Source: Hydrangea macrophylla (lineage: Eukaryota > Streptophyta > Magnoliopsida > Cornales > Hydrangeaceae). From it: a stretch of 64,000 nucleotides of DNA. Of the stretch, positions 41,521 to 52,085 are shown piece after piece. Location of the stretch: assembly GCA_033977485.1 (NCBI GenBank), contig CM066988.1:76667669-76731668 (forward strand), written 5' to 3'. The number at the start of each line of letters is the position of its first letter. The stretch's first letter is position 1. The notes below the pieces were generated by a model, which saw nothing but the letters and a program-made list of their open reading frames with translations, did not search any database and was not told the origin of the DNA. Made by a program: the position numbers and the translations under genes.

Positions 41521-42810
41521 TTTTGTGTAGTAACTCGTATTTTCATGTTTAAATTGACGATTTAGATTTCGTGTGCAATTTTAGCAGAAATTGGCCACAG
41601 GGGTATTTTGGTCATTTTTCTAATTTTGTAAGTCAAAAACTGAAAATACAATTTTTGAAAAAAGTTGCGTAAGGTTAAATGATTCGCTATTCGTATTAGA
41701 AGTTAAGAGTTTTCGATATCTATTTAGAAGATATCTCAATTTTAGTCATTTTGAGAAAATATCCGTTTTTGTATTCATACAACCTTTTCTGTATTTATTC
41801 GACTTTTTAATTATGTTATTTAATAATATAATTACATGAATAATAATTATAATGAAAGATAATAATTACCTAACTAGATTTCCACTATAATTAATATTAT
41901 TTCAGAACCCGTAATTATACATGTTATTCCCCTAACCATGCTTATACCCTAAGCCAACCCCCAAACAACCCCTGTGAGGTGTCCTATGAGGTGTCTTGGT
42001 GCTTGAGTGCTTGTGAGGTGTCCTGTGAGGTGTCTTGTGTGCTTGAGTGCTTGTGAGGTGTCCTATGAGGTGTCTTGTGAGGTGTTGTGTATAATATATA
42101 TACATATTGGTGGTCTTCCCCCTTTCCCTATAAAAACCCCTCCCATTAGTTGTTGAAAAGGAAGGGAAAAATAATAATAGAGAGTTAGCTGAGAGACTGA
42201 AGGAGAAAGAATATAAAAGAAAGGAAAGGAAGAAATCCCAAACCACACCACAACCCCGAACCTACAAGGCGTAGAAGGAGAGAAAGGAGAAGAAAAAAAA
42301 GGAGAGAGAGACACCCCGAGACCACCCACGACCACCCCAATCTCGCCGGTGTCACCGTCTTTACCAGTGAGTGCCTATACTCACTTAGTAGCGTAGATAT
42401 GTATGTTTATATATGTTTTGGCATGAAAGAATTAACAGACCCCGAACGTACGGGAAAGGTTCAGTTCAATTCTGGAATATTACTGCTCTTAATCGATCGA
42501 ACTTAGTTCAATCGATCGAATGTAATAGAATGTTAATTGTTTAGTTGTTTTATATCTAATGAACTGTTAACCTATTTATTATCATATGTTAATGTTGGAG
42601 AACTGTATGGAAATAATACATACGTGGAATAATGGACTTAATGCTTTGAAAAGTGGAACCCTTTGGTTACTGTTGAGATAATAATGAGATTGAAAAGCCG
42701 ACGTGCATAGTCATGGGTCTGTCGACCACAATGGTCGATACTATTTATGATTGGTACGTGTAAATGCGGTCACGAAGATCGTATGATATAGGACGGTATG
42801 GCCAGTAGTA

Positions 42811-43204
42811 TGTAATGGGCGTATTGGCCGTAATGTAATGAGCGTATTGGCTGGGCGTATTGGCCGTAAAGTAATGGGCATATTGGCCGTAATGTAATGA
42901 GCGTATTGGCTGGGCGTATTGGCCGTAATGTAAATAGTGTATTGGCTGGGCGTATTGGCCGTAATGTAAATAGCGTATTGGCTGGGCGTATTGGTCGTAA
43001 TGTAATGAGCGTATTGGTTGGGCGTATTGGCCGTAATGTAATGAGCGTATTGGCTGGGCATATTGGCCGTAATGTATCGAGCGTATTGGCTGGGCATATT
43101 GGCCATAATGTAATGGGCGTATTGGCTGTAATGTAATAAGCGTATTGGCTAGGCGTATTGGCCGTAAAGTAATGAGCGTCCTGGCTGGGCGTATTGGCTG
43201 TAAT
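42811..43204. repeat. Tandem array of C, left part (GCGTATTGGCTGGGCGTATTGGCCGTAATG)
   Basis: About ten units of roughly 35 bases, each with two GTATTGG boxes and GTAATGTAAT. The same array goes on at 51716-52085 on the other side of D. ORFs in this stretch are repeat artefacts. Confidence 0.9.
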
Positions 43205-45375
43205 TGTCACGACCCATCCCACTACGCGTGGAAATAGGACACGTGGCACGCCACCAAGGCTTATCCAAACACCAATATTATTATACGCAGCGGAAAGATT
43301 CTTCAAAACAACCCTGGTATTTAAAACTTAGGAAACATTCCCCTCTGAGTTGTAGAATCCATTGAAAATTTGAGTTATAAAAAGTTTTGACAATTGAAAA
43401 CACATTCAAGAGAGAATAGTTTTGAAAACAGAGGCTCAGTCGACTGCCCCGTCGACTGTGCCTAGCAGAACCCAAGACCCTAAATTCTCAGCAGAGATCC
43501 AGTCGACTGCTCACTCCCCCTCAGTCGACTGGGTTAAGCAGAACAAATAATGCAACATACTACAAAGGGTCCAGTCGACTGATCTGAGGATCCAGTCGAC
43601 TGCTTTTCCATTCATCAAAGCAGTAGCCAAAAATCTACAGTGTTCAGTCGACTGACGAAGGGTCCAGTCGACTGCTTCCCTTACTATTCACTTTCAGTGT
43701 CTCAATCCCACGAGGTCCAGTCGACTGACCCAGGGTCCAGTCGACTGCTCCCCTGCTGGGCAGCCTGTGTTGAAAATTCACAAGTCCAACTTCTCAAACC
43801 CAACATCAAACACAACCAACACCAATTTCAACATTTAAAACATAACTACCGACGTTCGATTACAATATTACAACACTGAGAAGCTAATCCATGTTTCTAT
43901 TACAACATACTACAATATTCAAATCCTTATACAAGCTTTGGGATTTAAAACAAAAACATTTACAAAGGTGATTTTCCCCGGCGTTCATCGGCCTCACTCC
44001 ACACACTTCTTCTTGCCCTTTTTCTTTTCACCTGCAATGGAGGAAGTCTCCACTGCTCAGCTATATGCTGAGTGTACAATTCTAAACAAATGCATATGGG
44101 CAATTCATGTTTTAAACATCTAAATCACATAATTTAGTCTCCGGGGAGAGAGATACGCATTCACCCAGTATATCGGCAAGTCTTAAATCTTAAACCGCGA
44201 TGCCAATGGTTAGCCAAGAATCACTCAACCATTGCATCCATCTGCTCTGGTTGGCCACTTCCCACACCAAGCAAGTAGTCGTCACTACTGTAAACTCTCA
44301 AACATCGAGAGGCGTGCACCGGCGTAAAATTATATCAAACTCCCCTTTGACCCACATAGACATTTAGCATACTCACATAACCATGGCACCGTGCTTTTCA
44401 ATACGTACTCGCTAAATTTAACGGGCCTAATTTAACACATAAGTTTGCCCGGATCACAAATCATACAAAACATCTAAAACATCCAAAATTGTCTATATTA
44501 CATAGGTTCGGAATTCATACCTCGAGCTATAGCTCTCAAACTTCAGGAGAAGTACAAGAAGACCAAATAAACGTCAGATCTCTGATCTTAAACGATTCCT
44601 ACAAGTATAGACATGTTTTTCCCAGATTCTTAAAATTAACTTTTCAGAAAAACTTCGCCAAACGTGGCCTAAGTAGTATCAAAACGTAGGTCTTACCTCC
44701 ACGAGTTCAAATCTGGAATTTGGTGAAAATCTGACAGACGAACGGTCGCCGTTTGTCGTCGCAAAGCCCGTGGCAACTAAATCTCCCTTCTCTCTCCTCT
44801 CTCTAGATATTTGTCTGGATTTGGATGAGAATGAATTCTCATCCTCATCTATATATAGACCAAATTTCGGGAATTTACGTTTACCTCCCCGCAAGTTTCT
44901 CAAAACTTCTAATTAATCCATGAAACGTCGCACACGTCCATTTTATGCCTTTACGAGTGAAAACTATAAGTTTCAAAAGTTTTCGACTAGGTTTCGTTTG
45001 GGTCCAAAATTAACGTCCGAAAACTATAATCTGTGGAATCTCTACACAACCTACCTTTTTAGTTAACGTGTCACTCACGTTCTCACCACAGTTCTCAAAA
45101 CGATCTCTAACAGTATCAAAATTACCAGAATTATACTTCACAGGTATAATTACTATTCATAAAATACCAGATATTTCAAATAACATTTAAATCATATAAA
45201 TGTCATTTACTCATGTTTATGCAATATGAACTGCCATGTTCCCGTGTCCTTACTGACACCTTACCGTTGACCCACAGTCAACCTCGTCTCAATCCAATTA
45301 TCAAATAACATTGATATACTCACAACTTTCCAATTATGTATGATAAAACTATGAAATTTTGGAACGGGTGTGACA
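43205..45375 (-). repeat. 3' LTR of D (2171 bp)
   Basis: On the minus strand it starts TGTCACACCCG (45375) and ends GGGTCGTGACA (43205). TATA: CTATATATAG at 44849-44858. A perfect CTCAGC/GCTGAG hairpin is at 44056-44072. CAGTCGACTG palindromes are at 43437-43747, about 1.1 kb downstream of the TATA box. Confidence 0.93.
43437..43747. repeat. CAGTCGACTG palindrome cluster of D (also 49777-50087)
   Basis: About ten copies of the perfect 10-bp palindrome, mostly in pairs. Within pairs the start-to-start distance is 20-22 bases, two helical turns. One copy in each LTR is changed by a transition relative to its partner region. Confidence 0.9.
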
Positions 45376-48300
45376 ACTCTCCCCTCCAAAAAGGAAGTTT
45401 GTCCCCAAACTTAAACCATCTTCTCAAGTCACCAAGATTTCACACAAGTACTTCCAACATTTGCCTCATACACAAACCAATCACTTCACTGAGAAGTCAC
45501 AGTCTCACGAGGAAAATAAATCCTCAGGCTCTTAAGGAAAATAAATCCTCAGAGCCTCCATCTCAATCTGATAGGAGATTCAAACAGAATCCTAGCAATA
45601 CTCCGAAACATCTCGATAGATAAGAATATCAATACCTGAGTGAAACTTACCAATAGTCATACCTGACATTAACTCACCTCACGATATCACAACGTCAACT
45701 CACATATATCTTTATTTTACTTGTCGCATTTCATTTCCGAAACTCAAAAGTTTCATCACATTACTCAAACTCAAGACAACCATTCATCTCTCATTCACCT
45801 ATCTTGCATTTCGACTACAAGTCATTGACAACATGTCCTAGCTGGTGTACAATCATACACAATTCTTCATCTCGAAGTGACCCAAACTGAGTACTATCAT
45901 ACACAAATACAATGTCGATAAGTCAATGCCTCAACCAACTGTTGCACATACTATAGATCATCATACCACTTGCAGTACCATATCGTATTTCAAATGATTC
46001 CCAAGTTCTTATCAAATTCCGACTTACCTTCCTAATAACTCCACATCACGGCAACATCAGTTGCAATAATTATCACCTAATCGGTAGTTCGTCACTCAGT
46101 ACTTCCCTCTGTCCCTACAAATTCGTAGCATTCCATTCAGGTTTTGCTAATCTCGTACTATACTCCCATCAATCGTACCTCATAAGGCATCAATCAAGTT
46201 CTCTACTGAAAATTTCACACCATTTTATTCATTCAAGTTTGCACATGTCTCAAATCACCCACGGTGAAGCCAAATACAATTGTCGTTCCTCTTTCCCAAG
46301 TTTGCACTCGAACTACCACTGATTGAAATAAAGGATTCATACCTCATACTTTTTGGTTTAAAACTTTTCAACAAAGTCAAATGCATTTATGATTATGATT
46401 TAAAACAAGCTGATTTAAAATCTCACCTAATACTTTCATCCCTTCTCGCAACATAATTGCCCCATTATTCTTAGTAACAAATAACATTGTCGCCCAAAAT
46501 CAACTTAGTCAATCATCCATGTATCACGGAGTTCATTACAACGTATCCCTACGTTCAACACATACATCATCACTGTCTCTATCATTGACTGTTCACAGTC
46601 CATCCGACTCTCATAGTATACATATGCCCTAAGCCAATTCCTTCTCTATCGGAGATCACAACTCCACTGTAACCCATTTCCATCTCATACCTTACCCGTT
46701 TACTATTCTTTACATTCATCGATCCACGTAGGTCCCTTACCATTGCCGTAGTAGTAAAATTTTTCCTACTCCTCGGTTGTTTCACTTTAACTTTTACACA
46801 AGTCCAGACCATTCACACATCCGTATACTTCAACTCATACCGAGCTCTTAATAAACCTTCACCCCAAGTATATGCTCCTCGTATATAACATCTCACGACT
46901 CCATATTTTATCCCAACATTTAATGTTCCATAACTGTAGTCGATTTTGACTTAATTTCAATTCGAACTCTCTAATCCTTTGTTTGTTCTATCCGGATCTC
47001 CACTCCCTTGTTCCCGAATAATTCTGTTGCTCAACGTTCGTATTATTCTCGTAACCCATCTAGAGGTAGTCCAGTAATCAAACATTTCCATAAGGTATGT
47101 CTCACTGTGTTCAGTACATTTCTTATCAATTCCCAATGCTCATACCTGTCGCGACAATACACAAGGTCACCCCATTCTCACTCCGGTTATTAAGTCAACC
47201 GATGGATCATAACTGTTATCTCTCAAGTGCTTCATACGTTATGAATTTCACCAAGTTCCTGATCGTTCAAAATTTCAAATCATTCACAATCTCGGATTAT
47301 CCCAATACATAAACCCAGATCAAGCTCCCTTTGGCACGATGCTCACGACAACTCAATAAATGTCATACGCTCAAACTTATCAAATTCAAGTGCGCGAAAC
47401 CCCACCATCTCCTTACTTTAGCATTTCGAAGTTCACCACCTACTCACGTGGGACTCAATCGTTTGACCACCTTTGTTGCATCCCCAGTACTACGCATACT
47501 GCATCCTTCTACAATACTTAGCTTTCAAAACCTACTCAATACATTATCGCCAGCATTTAATACCACATCCCTCATTTAAACAAAAGTTAGGTTTTGAAAT
47601 ATTTTAAACATTTTAAAATTTTCACAGGGACGGAATCTGACATTCTCAAAATCCTCCAACCTTGTTGGAATTCAAGACAACTGTGATAGCTTCCCATTGC
47701 ATCCACCACTGTACTCTATCAGCCTCACATTCCCGCTATCATATCTGTTAACGTGCTCAACGTACTACCAAGTCTTCATTCCACTCAACTGTCCCCGTTC
47801 ATTTACTCATTAAAGCTTTATTTTCTCGATTCATATTTTAACTTCTCTACATTGACTTACCCAAAGTCTCTCTACTTGTCTATCGTTCCCACAACCGCTC
47901 TTGTTCAGTATCGTAATACCCGTTGTACTCTAGCGTCCTGCTGATAGTATCTTGTGTTAAATATTCAACGATATTTTAAAAACATTCAAAGGAAAGATTT
48001 TTTTCATTTTATTTTGAAAATACGTTAAAAGTCCAGGTTTGACATCGCCTGTACTTCACCCCTTGGTGGTAACCACCTTCACACAAGCTTCTTATCAAAG
48101 TACTCTCATCCCCATGATATCCAAATCCCACTCGATTTCTCTGAGTTTCTTCTCACGTTCCATAATTCACACTTATGTTTTATTCCCGGTCTCCTAATCT
48201 TACTCCCTTTATTCTATCTCTTCCGACAACCCCTGGCAAAACATTAGGGAATCTTATTACTTTGCATTTTTGTCCATTCATTTGTTTCTCACCAAGACCT

Positions 48301-48612
48301 CTACAATTTCTCCTCCGACCTATGTCGTCCTTCAACATCAGTCATCATCCTCATCGTTGCATTTCTACGGCATAACCATCGAGTCTAGCAAACCACTCTA
48401 GAAGTCTCATCATCTCATTGGTTAACCTTCGACTATCTATAGGCTCAAACTGTTCACTCATACTCTATTATTTCCATTCATAATTCTCATCTCAAGTCAA
48501 CCTTCAGATCCCAACAATTTCCTTTCTACTATTAACTCAATAGCATTTGTTACAAATCCCAACACTGCATCTGCATTTGTTATAGTGCTACGACTATTTG
48601 AAACCAGGTTCA

Positions 48613-48930
48613 GTTGAGAGATTCCTCAACAACCACAATACTGATAGCCCGTAGAGATATCGCCCAATCCCTAATACGTTCCACAAGATAGGTTGAGAGA
48701 TTCCTCAACCGTCCAATACATACCGTAAGATAGGTTGAGAGATTCCTCAACCATCCAATACATACCATATACCGCACCATAAGTTGAAAGATTCTTCAAC
48801 TACCGGACATACCCTGCATATATCGTAAGACAAACCATACACCGTATATGTCGAAAAATACCCCATAAGACAACCGCGCACTATCGTGCTGTAGGTTTCC
48901 ACCGTAAGATAAGGTGAGAGATTCCTCACC
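48613..48930 (-). ncRNA. Array of hairpins with invariant loop and covarying arms in the D leader
   Basis: Five inverted repeats share the 6-base loop AGATTC (+ strand). Arms: GTTGAG/CTCAAC (48613-48630), GGTTGAG/CTCAACC (48691-48710 and 48733-48752), AGTTGAA/TTCAACT (48782-48801) and GGTGAG/CTCACC (48913-48930). The arms differ but stay paired, while the loop does not change. In the element RNA (minus strand) the loop reads GAATCT. The position, between primer site and the rest of the interior, is where LTR elements usually hold packaging or dimerisation signals. That role is an inference. Confidence 0.6.
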
Positions 48931-49527
48931 GGTCCCATACACGAGCAATACATACTGCTGAACTATTTTTTTTCTGTCATAAACTCCAACTGGTCATTCA
49001 TTTTCTCTCGCATCATGACGTATATCCCATGTCTGAAGTATAACTTTAATCAAGTACTTCTAGTCTCAAAACTCAACCACAACACTCACTTTCGTTCCCT
49101 AGGTGAACTATACGGAAATCTTCTCTGACGTGTACTACTCGACTTCGTTCTCGGTAAGATCTCCCAAAGGACACTCGTCACTATCGTTGGAAATATCCAC
49201 CGATTCGATCAAAACTATTTTCTTTTGGCTTAGAATTTCCACTGTTCATCACTACCAAAGTATCATCTTTTCCTCTTACCACAACACGCGGTCTATTATA
49301 CTCATGATAATATCATTACATCGTACGGCTCCACATCCGTATGATTCAACCGATTCTCACGAATGCATAAATGCTATGCATGCATGATAACAACATAATT
49401 ATGTATGTATAACAACATACCATATGCATCAAACATCTCTAAAATATGTCGATGCATTCTAAAACATGTGACAATTCACTCAACACTCCACTCGTCGTCG
49501 AACGTTCCCAAAGTTTTGTTACCTATA

Positions 49528-49539
49528 GCTCTGATACCA
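49528..49539 (-). other. Primer binding site of D, initiator tRNA-Met type
   Basis: The minus strand reads TGGTATCAGAGC, the standard plant primer site complementary to initiator tRNA-Met, 5 bases from the 5' LTR. It fixes the orientation of D. Confidence 0.88.
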
Positions 49540-49544
49540 CTAAA

Positions 49545-51715
49545 TGTCACGACCCATCCCACTACGCGTGGAAATAGGACACGTGGCACGCCACCAAGGC
49601 TCATCCAAACACCAATATTATTATACGCAGCGGAAAGATTCTTCAAAACAACCCTGGTATTTAAAACTTAGGAAACATTCCCCTCTGAGTTGTAGAATCC
49701 ATTGAAAATTTGAGTTATAAAAAGTTTTGACAATTGAAAACACATTCAAGAGAGAATAGTTTTGAAAACAGAGGCTCAGTCGACTACCCCGTCGACTGTG
49801 CCTAGCAGAACCCAAGACCCTAAATTCTCAGCAGAGATCCAGTCGACTGCTCACTCCCCCTCAGTCGACTGGGTTAAGCAGAACAAATAATGCAACATAC
49901 TACAAAGGGTCCAGTCGACTGATCTGAGGATCCAGTCGACTGCTTTTCCATTCATCAAAGCAGTAGCCAAAAATCTACAGTGTTTAGTCGACTGACGAAG
50001 GGTCCAGTCGACTGCTTCCCTTACTATTCACTTTCAGTGTCTCAATCCCACGAGGTCCAGTCGACTGACCCAGGGTCCAGTCGACTGCTCCCCTGCTGGG
50101 CAGCCTGTGTTGAAAATTCACAAGTCCAACTTCTCAAACCCAACATCAAACACAACCAACACCAATTTCAACATTTAAAACATAACTACCGACGTTCGAT
50201 TACAATATTACAACACTGAGAAGCTAATCCATGTTTCTATTACAACATACTACAATATTCAAATCCTTATACAAGCTTTGGGATTTAAAACAAAAACATT
50301 TACAAAGGTGATTTTCCCCGGCGTTCATCGGCCTCACTCCACACACTTCTTCTTGCCCTTTTTCTTTTCACCTGCAATGGAGGAAGTCTCCACTGCTCAG
50401 CTATATGCTGAGTGTACAATTCTAAACAAATGCATATGGGCAATTCATGTTTTAAACATCTAAATCACATAATTTAGTCTCCGGGGAGAGAGATACGCAT
50501 TCACCCAGTATATCGGCAAGTCTTAAATCTTAAACCGCGATGCCAATGGTTAGCCAAGAATCACTCAACCATTGCATCCATCTGCTCTGGTTGGCCACTT
50601 CCCACACCAAGCAAGTAGTCGTCACTACTGTAAACTCTCAAACATCGAGAGGCGTGCACCGGCGTAAAATTATATCAAACTCCCCTTTGACCCACATAGA
50701 CATTTAGCATACTCACATAACCATGGCACCGTGCTTTTCAATACGTACTCGCTAAATTTAACGGGCCTAATTTAACACATAAGTTTGCCCGGATCACAAA
50801 TCATACAAAACATCTAAAACATCCAAAATTGTCTATATTACATAGGTTCGGAATTCATACCTCGAGCTATAGCTCTCAAACTTCAGGAGAAGTACAAGAA
50901 GACCAAATAAACGTCAGATCTCCGATCTTAAACGATTCCTACAAGTATAGACATGTTTTTCCCAGATTCTTAAAATTAACTTTTCAGAAAAACTTCGCCA
51001 AACGTGGCCTAAGTAGTATCAAAACGTAGGTCTTACCTCCACGAGTTCAAATCTGGAATTTGGTGAAAATCTGACAGACGAACGGTCGCCGTTTGTCGTC
51101 GCAAAGCCCGTGGCAACTAAATCTCCCTTCTCTCTCCTCTCTCTAGATATTTGTTTGGATTTGGATGAGAATGAATTCTCATCCTCATCTATATATAGAC
51201 CAAATTTCGGGAATTTACGTTTACCTCCCCGCAAGTTTCTCAAAACTTCTAATTAATCCATGAAACGTCGCACACGTCCATTTTATGCCTTTACGAGTGA
51301 AAACTATAAGTTTCAAAAGTTTTCGACTAGGTTTCGTTTGGGTCCAAAATTAACGTCCGAAAACTATAATCTGTGGAATCTCTACACAACCTACCTTTTT
51401 AGTTAACGTGTCACTCACGTTCTCACCACAGTTCTCAAAACGATCTCTAACAGTATCAAAATTACCAGAATTATACTTCACAGGTATAATTACTATTCAT
51501 AAAATACCAGATATTTCAAATAACATTTAAATCATATAAATGTCATTTACTCATGTTTATGCAATATGAACTGCCATGTTCCCGTGTCCTTACTGACACC
51601 TTACCGTTGACCCACAGTCAACCTCGTCTCAATCCAATTATCAAATAACATTGATATACTCACAACTTTCCAATTATGTATGATAAAACTATGAAATTTT
51701 GGAACGGGTGTGACA
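49545..51715 (-). repeat. 5' LTR of D (2171 bp)
   Basis: Partner of 43205-45375 at a constant offset of 6340. Contains the same palindromes (49777-50087), hairpin (50396-50412) and TATA (51189-51198). Confidence 0.93.
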
Positions 51716-52085
51716 GTAATGTATCTACCGTATTGGCTGGGCGTATTGGCCGTAATGTACCGAGCTTATTGGCTGGGCGTATTGGCCGTAATGTAATGGG
51801 CGTATTGGTCGTAATGTAATGAGCGTATTGGCTGGGCGTATTGGCCGTAATGTAATGAGCATATTGGCTGGGCGTATTGGCCGTAATGTAATGAGCGTAT
51901 TGGCTGGGCGTATTGGCCATAATGTATCGAGCGTATTGGCTGGGCGTATTGGCCGTAATGTATTGGGCATATTGGCCATAATGTATCGAGCATATTGGCT
52001 AGGCGTATTAGCCGTAATGTATTGAGCGTATTGGCTGGGCATGTTGGCCGTAAAGTATTGGGCGTGTTGGCCAGGATGTATCAAA
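51716..52085. repeat. Tandem array of C, right part
   Basis: Continues the array of 42811-43204 with the same GTATTGGCTGGGCGTATTGGC units. It becomes degenerate after about 52030. Confidence 0.9.

Follow-up and report, generated by a model that had tools for sequence, protein, structure and literature searches.

The minus-strand RNA of a gene-less LTR retrotransposon of Hydrangea macrophylla is predicted to carry an array of five hairpins that display one AAUC tetraloop, and comparison of copies within the genome supports that this array recurs and is conserved in a non-autonomous lineage. Our leading explanation, which is held tentatively, is that the array is a cis-acting RNA element of this lineage, possibly a multi-copy binding site for the Gag of a helper that would draw the parasite RNA into particles. 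The element (element D) lies in a window of 64,000 nucleotides, i.e., the whole stretch of DNA that was analyzed, and coordinates are counted from the first nucleotide of this window. Element D was found to be organized as follows.

43205..51715, minus strand: whole non-autonomous LTR element (element D), with a 2171-bp LTR pair and GTAAT on both sides
49545..51715, minus strand: 5' LTR, 2171 bp
49528..49539, minus strand: primer binding site (PBS), TGGTATCAGAGC, read from the sequence
45376..49544, minus strand: internal region, 4169 bp, in which gag was not found
45376..45387, minus strand: polypurine tract (PPT), GGAGGGGAGAGT, adjoining the 3' LTR
43205..45375, minus strand: 3' LTR, 2171 bp
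43200..43204, strand not applicable: target-site duplication GTAAT, one side
51716..51720, strand not applicable: target-site duplication GTAAT, other side

The order of PBS (which we take to be of the initiator Met tRNA type), PPT and LTRs is that of the minus strand and, thus, the element RNA is the minus-strand RNA. The sequence-only reading that preceded this work had considered the element non-autonomous, and this was borne out. No gag was detected in element D by tblastn, the longest sense stop-free run of the internal region (76 codons) was no longer than in shuffled sequence, and Pfam analysis of 10 of the 40 listed stop-free pieces gave no domain at the curated cut-off, nor did Pfam reveal a domain at cut-off within the array. 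The two LTRs were found to differ at 5 positions in 2171 bp, all transitions, which indicates a young insertion, with an age of approximately 0.09 My at an assumed rate of 1.3e-8 substitutions per site per year. Only 0.37 changes are expected in the 318-nt array since insertion; thus, the differences from unit to unit are largely older than the insertion of element D.

The array is separated from the PBS by 0.60-0.90 kb, in agreement with the 0.6-0.9 kb that had been proposed at the outset. The 5' end of the RNA is more distant, however, as judged by the TATA box of the 5' LTR at 51197: the inferred start is located some 1.6 kb before the PBS and, hence, 2.2-2.6 kb from the array. A 9-bp hairpin (GGATGAGAA-TTCA-TTCTCATCC) was noted at 51162-51197, immediately past the LTR TATA box and near this inferred start, and also at 44822-44845. 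Each LTR also harbors ten copies (at most 1 mismatch) of the palindrome CAGTCGACTG, at 49777-50087 and 43437-43747, with starts that are 12-53 nt apart (20 copies in the window vs 0.93 expected). The insertion site of element D is itself a tandem array of 36-59-nt units (CGTATTGGCCGTAATGTA type), which is present on both sides (42810-43204 and 51716-52071).

Within positions 48612-48931, five imperfect palindromes of 20 nt each were identified that have an identical 6-nt middle.

48912..48931, minus strand: hairpin 1 (first in the RNA), GGTGAG-GAATCT-CTCACC core
48782..48801, minus strand: hairpin 2, AGTTGAA-GAATCT-TTCAACT
48733..48752, minus strand: hairpin 3, GGTTGAG-GAATCT-CTCAACC
48691..48710, minus strand: hairpin 4, GGTTGAG-GAATCT-CTCAACC
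48612..48631, minus strand: hairpin 5, GTTGAG-GAATCT-CTCAAC core, outer T-T unpaired

The earlier claim of five inverted repeats with exactly one common loop was confirmed and found to be beyond chance. The internal region has eight hairpins with a 6-bp stem and 6-nt loop, five of these with one common loop; by comparison, 500 dinucleotide shuffles of this 4.17-kb region gave a mean of 0.84 such hairpins, and a loop was never common to two. The loop had been read as AGATTC and is indeed identical in all five hairpins, but with the RNA on the minus strand it is instead GAAUCU, the ends of which can pair G-U to leave AAUC. The RNA form is a stem of 6 or 7 bp with a G-U closing pair and an AAUC tetraloop (GGUUGAG-G[AAUC]U-CUCAACC).

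Paired replacement in the arms, also proposed from the sequence, was found at three pairs (hairpin 2, pairs 1 and 7; hairpin 1, pair 5), with no one-sided replacements. Of the 35 arm pairs 33 are formed, but hairpins 1 and 5 each have a broken outer pair. This covariation (null P of 0.003-0.009; reached in 8 of 500 shuffles) is moderate evidence for pairing, the units being related to one another. Indeed, hairpins 3 and 4 lie within a 42-nt tandem repeat (97% matches), as would be expected if the array were a neutral by-product, with duplication of a 42-49-nt unit that happened to contain a hairpin, and with symmetric changes that came from exchange of units or from template switching between arms. 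Plant Retand elements are described as often having tandem repeats (PMC11963269), which fits this explanation as well. We consider such a neutral origin unlikely. Between units, the 18-nt core is 91% identical vs 38% for the flanks. The core of hairpin 5 is intact, with 18 of 20 nt in common with hairpins 3 and 4, whereas its flanks are at 17-33% identity and display no significant similarity to those of the other units by gapped alignment; this contrast argues against the neutral explanation.

Folding predictions were consistent with a structured RNA. Among 81 windows, folding z was lowest for the segment 48676-48825 on both strands (minus, -4.27; plus, -7.03). When a 1.4-kb leader was folded, the stem pairs had a probability of 0.86-0.99, and the AAUC loop was unpaired at 0.87-1.00. 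A hairpin model gave 33.7-37.7 bits on the minus strand vs 9.6-16.2 bits for the same sites on the plus strand, a contrast that is partly by construction, since the model was made from these hairpins. Rfam analysis of 43000-52000 revealed nothing at gathering score (one match, 23.5 bits vs 75 needed). A partial hairpin match in the LTR (49633-49644) was discarded as being at chance level (12.2 bits, E of 0.7).

Dimerisation had initially been suggested as an alternative to packaging, and a palindromic site near the 5' end of Ty3 RNA has been proposed to drive dimerisation (PMC11381356). However, the loop GAAUCU is not self-complementary, and the predicted gain of the homodimer (4.4-5.0 kcal/mol) is what the self-complementary arms alone would give. 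Based on these predictions, dimerisation is an unlikely function of the array, and a signal that acts by loop-loop kissing would be highly improbable.

The array proved to be present in multiple copies, as had been anticipated. The exact pattern of hairpins 2 and 3 was detected at 672 places in this 2.2-Gb genome compared to 0 for the reversed control, and a search for other copies gave 1777 candidates in 2.22 Gb, of which 40 out of 40 that were scored matched. Absence of the array from mobile relatives, a finding that would have spoken against the sequence-only reading, was not observed; hundreds of places have the array, and element D is a young copy. Among relatives sought in viral contigs, genome contigs and plasmids, no plant one was recognized. 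Of the matches L001-L006 (L001-L004 being viral single matches), L005 was inspected; this Bacteroidaceae contig (6568-6629) was rejected as a look-alike, in that it is a bacterial repeat with two TTGAAGAATCTTTCAA hairpins in tandem.

Close copies of element D were compared in a set of 39 that included element D and 38 of the 39 other scored matches (C1:98718003 was left out). Diversity in this set was 0.013 for loops, 0.042 for arms, 0.064 for spacers and 0.102 outside. A divergence profile of eight copies gave 0.013-0.046 in the array and up to 0.30 in the LTR, a profile that is biased by the choice of copies for array similarity. Arms mutating without compensation, the second outcome that would have counted against the earlier reading, was seen in part: 21 of the 34 arm changes among the 39 copies break a pair, with 15 of these 21 on tips, where decay of inserted copies would be unconstrained. 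On internal branches, changes per site were 0.118 for arms vs 0.124 for spacers, and the 9 arm changes included 6 that break, 2 that keep and 1 that restores pairing. This branch count speaks against special constraint on the arms of close copies, and the neutral explanation gains from it.

More distant relatives were represented by 70 diverse arrays (30 loci of the hairpin 2 and 3 pattern and 40 additional regions, from contigs C1 and C2 only) with a median divergence of 23% outside the hairpins. Despite this divergence, hairpin 1, which was not part of the search pattern, was placed in 70 of 70 arrays with at most 3 mismatches in 18 (65 at the usual distance and 5 displaced), a finding that speaks against a neutral by-product. 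Pair 5 of hairpin 1 was GC in 57 arrays, TA in 6, GU in 6 and AC in 1. When the 25 distinct forms of hairpin 1 from all 70 arrays were compared to 2000 shuffles, the observed values were reached in 0 shuffles for double cells, 0 or 1 for covariation and 2 for percent paired; the count of double-change pairs was not unusual (165 and 169 of 2000 shuffles). Upon removal of the 5 displaced placements, these counts rose to 20 of 2000 for covariation, 35 for double cells, 68 for percent paired and 500 for double-change pairs. For hairpin 4 with weak placements excluded, 67 of 2000 shuffles reached the percent paired and 95 of 2000 the double cells, and no significant covariation was detected in the 70 arrays by shuffle test for hairpin 5, hairpin 4b or hairpin 4 with weak placements included. 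These shuffles take no account of relatedness.

All six TA arrays at pair 5 of hairpin 1 were found to carry a whole hairpin-3-type unit and, thus, unit exchange may explain this pair, which is the main double replacement of hairpin 1. More generally, template switching or unit exchange may be the source of the arm symmetry. In light of the displaced placements and these whole-unit replacements, covariation across subfamilies appears moderate and confined to some hairpins: it is clear for hairpin 1 with all 70 arrays, weaker without the displaced ones and absent for hairpins 4, 5 and 4b. The lack of significant signal in the latter hairpins again fits a neutral origin.

Changes in the diverse arrays were also assigned to branches of a tree built from non-hairpin sites, after exclusion of 9 of 67 hairpin-4 placements (more than 3 mismatches) and of the 13 arrays, out of 70, in which hairpin 5 was not placed. 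By this approach, pairing was kept vs broken at a ratio of 11:3 on internal branches compared to 19:31 on tips, with one restored (P of 0.008 one-sided, 0.014 two-sided). Similar values were obtained without the displaced hairpin 1 placements (11:4 internal vs 16:30 tip; P of 0.010 one-sided, 0.015 two-sided), whereas restoring the nine weak hairpin-4 placements gave 11:10 internal vs 21:34 tip (P of 0.19). Hairpin 1 alone gave 6:1 internal vs 8:9 tip (P of 0.097) or, at its usual place, 6:2 vs 5:8 (P of 0.12). Taken together, these ratios provide moderate support for selection for pairing.

Internal changes per site were 1.94 for non-hairpin sites, 0.47 for arms, 0.17 for the closing pair and 0.08 for the tetraloop, compared to tip changes of 2.00, 1.19, 2.00 and 0.42, respectively; the outside rate may be inflated, as spacers were aligned across tandem repeats, and the entry condition of intact hairpins 2 and 3 favors well-kept arrays. 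The AAUC tetraloop is slow to change, with one internal-branch change over 12 sites, which argues against the neutral explanation. Hairpin 1 had 9 internal and 20 tip changes vs 697 and 717 outside the hairpins (P of 0.038) or, at the usual place only, 9 and 15 vs 697 and 717 (P of 0.17). The closing pair of hairpin 1 was GU in 60 of 70 arrays, GC in 5, AU in 3 and other in 2. Correction between arms might be expected to convert this G-U mismatch too, yet it persists in the 60 arrays.

The closing pair also bears on whether the array acts as DNA, i.e., as a series of dyad-symmetric protein sites such as a transcriptional activator cluster, as has been proposed for Sirevirus motifs. Sirevirus elements are reported to have 8-32 palindromic motifs each (PMC2829016), and the LTRs of element D hold the CAGTCGACTG palindrome array, which is like the Sirevirus motifs in form and unlike them in sequence. 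However, Sirevirus motifs keep CGG-CCG arms and vary in the middle, whereas here a non-palindromic middle is kept and the arms vary. Moreover, the array is within the inferred transcript, and the closing pair is mismatched in DNA, yet 8 of its 10 departures are to GC or AU. A function of the array as DNA sites is, by these observations, improbable.

Gag-bearing relatives were sought with a 22-nt LTR/PBS pattern in which the array is not included. Of the 3168 places detected, the first 30 were examined over 1.5 kb on each side of the PBS; these are all located on contig C1. By tblastn, gag was found in 19 of these 30 loci (confirmed by Pfam in 4 of 4 scanned), and 0 of the 19 had a hairpin-model match at E of 0.01 in the stretch examined; L155 and L156 each had one look-alike hairpin with 4 mismatches. 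By contrast, five or six hairpin-like motifs with no detected gag were present in 5 of the 30 (L142, L143, L144, L154 and L157), and these five arrays were all among the 11 gag-negative loci. Partial cases, also without gag, were L139 (a lone perfect hairpin 1.4 kb past the PBS) and L146 (hairpin 1 alone within the examined stretch). When 15 gag-bearing loci were compared to the element D leader, 14 were found to share 22-67 nt, while L135 shares 188 nt (80%) and much of the LTR (72-95%), with its gag match starting at nt 210. A packaging signal of the retroviral type, common to helper and packaged RNA, was thus not found in the stretch examined (0 of 19 gag-bearing loci). Given that the array is missing from the sampled gag-bearing elements, it would have been added in the parasite lineage, as opposed to being the helper's own signal.

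The confinement of the five arrays to gag-negative loci also fits a need peculiar to untranslated RNA. By this alternative, the array would be bound by a host protein that stabilizes, exports or localizes the element RNA. The structural evidence applies equally, with the partner alone being different, and a host protein fits nearly as well as Gag. We know of no host protein with specificity for an AAUC loop, and consider this explanation rather unlikely.

Helper Gag is favored as the partner in that gene-less elements must move by such means and in view of chimeras with a gag-bearing family. These chimeras were surveyed in 28 array loci with the PBS in view, 5 selected by PBS and 23 from L053-L082 (7 of these 30 had no PBS in view). 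LTR parts with 86-95% identity over at least 500 nt (summed pieces, possibly overlapping) to gag-bearing loci of the L137/L141/L147/L150 kind, other than L135, were detected in 12 of the 28 (L142, L143, L144, L157, L055, L064, L070, L071, L073, L077, L080 and L082). The nearest leader was that of L135 for 22 array loci, of the L147/L148/L150 kind for five (L143, L157, L064, L067 and L073) and of L153 for one. L073 is 96.5% identical to L147 from the PBS over 432 nt, including the first 68 codons of gag (91%); beyond a sharp junction about 425-432 nt past the PBS, it matches the body of element D at 75%, array included. Similarly, in L144 a D-type leader is joined to an L150-like LTR (95%). Template switching between two RNAs within one particle would give rise to junctions of this type, although recombination at the DNA level could also have produced them.

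The chimeras suggest that RNAs of the two families were packaged together in shared particles, and the L147/L150 family, which is without the array in the stretch examined, is a likely helper. They reveal close contact with the gag-bearing family and are silent on the binding partner of the array. Our leading explanation supposes that the minus-strand RNA of the gene-less element folds into the five hairpins in the cell, that pairing is under selection during transposition, that the nucleocapsid of the helper Gag binds the array, and that the chimeras arose by template switching in shared particles. A more specific scenario, which we regard as doubtful, is that the gene-less lineage evolved its own capsid-capture RNA that out-competes helper RNA for Gag and was kept with the body while LTR and leader were repeatedly swapped. 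The AAUC hairpin array, with its chimeras to a gag-bearing family, thus provides a concrete candidate packaging element, and raises the question of whether parasite elements evolve packaging elements of their own.

Comparison to known systems was based on the available portions of the papers cited. Large retrotransposon derivatives (LARDs) have LTRs, a PBS, a PPT and a multi-kb internal region without coding capacity, and their authors state that RNA secondary structures are well conserved (PMC7215508). Element D has the same features, i.e., paired LTRs with a target-site duplication, a PBS and a PPT, a large internal region (4169 bp) without detected coding capacity (gag by tblastn; Pfam on 10 of 40 pieces) and many copies with a conserved non-coding internal region (1777 candidates, 40 of 40 scored matching; 672 places). 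It differs in that a repeated hairpin with an invariant tetraloop is not in the LARD description of that source (PMC7215508); the original account (Kalendar 2004) was outside the comparison. Within the same limits, no plant LTR element was found in the literature consulted with a repeated invariant-loop hairpin array in its leader, and the words hairpin, stem-loop and secondary structure are absent from the available text of a plant review.

Gammaretroviruses have a pair of GACG-tetraloop hairpins, SL-C and SL-D, in the dimer-linkage region (PMC5874298), which are similar to the array in being leader hairpins with one conserved tetraloop. Here, by contrast, the tetraloop is AAUC, the copies are five and not two, and the predicted hairpins are 0.6-0.9 kb past the PBS. 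Sirevirus motifs are likewise palindromic and present in many copies within non-coding regions of plant LTR elements, but these are Copia elements, and the motifs are in the LTR or proximal to env, with arms kept and middle variable, and have been read as DNA sites (PMC2829016). The array arms (GGTTGAG/CTCAACC) and leader position do not correspond to the Sirevirus definition of CGG-CCG arms in the LTR or before env. BARE2, packaged in BARE1 particles, is similarly an element that is unable to make Gag and is packaged by a relative (PMC3735527). In that system the parasite is said to have conserved signals for dimerisation and packaging, whereas here the array is absent from the sampled gag-bearing loci. 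Ty1 and Ty3 also have cis signals in the RNA of an LTR element; a hairpin array is not described in the available portions, and the cis packaging sequences are said to be not clearly defined (PMC4974528, PMC11381356). With respect to a possible mobilisation in trans by an autonomous element, the 12 of 28 array loci with gag-family LTRs and the gag-family 5' end of L073 suggest shared particles.

Two further features were noted in array-bearing loci. A 134-codon open frame starting LLRMPARKTRVGG is common to L061 (2022-2423) and L127 (1203-1604), downstream of the arrays, and gave no match when the L061 copy was analyzed by Pfam. A hairpin of GTATGT-TGTTAT-ACATAC is located at about 49420, some 110 nt past the PBS of element D, and recurs in array-bearing loci, with 15 counts of the TGTTAT loop over 30 array loci.
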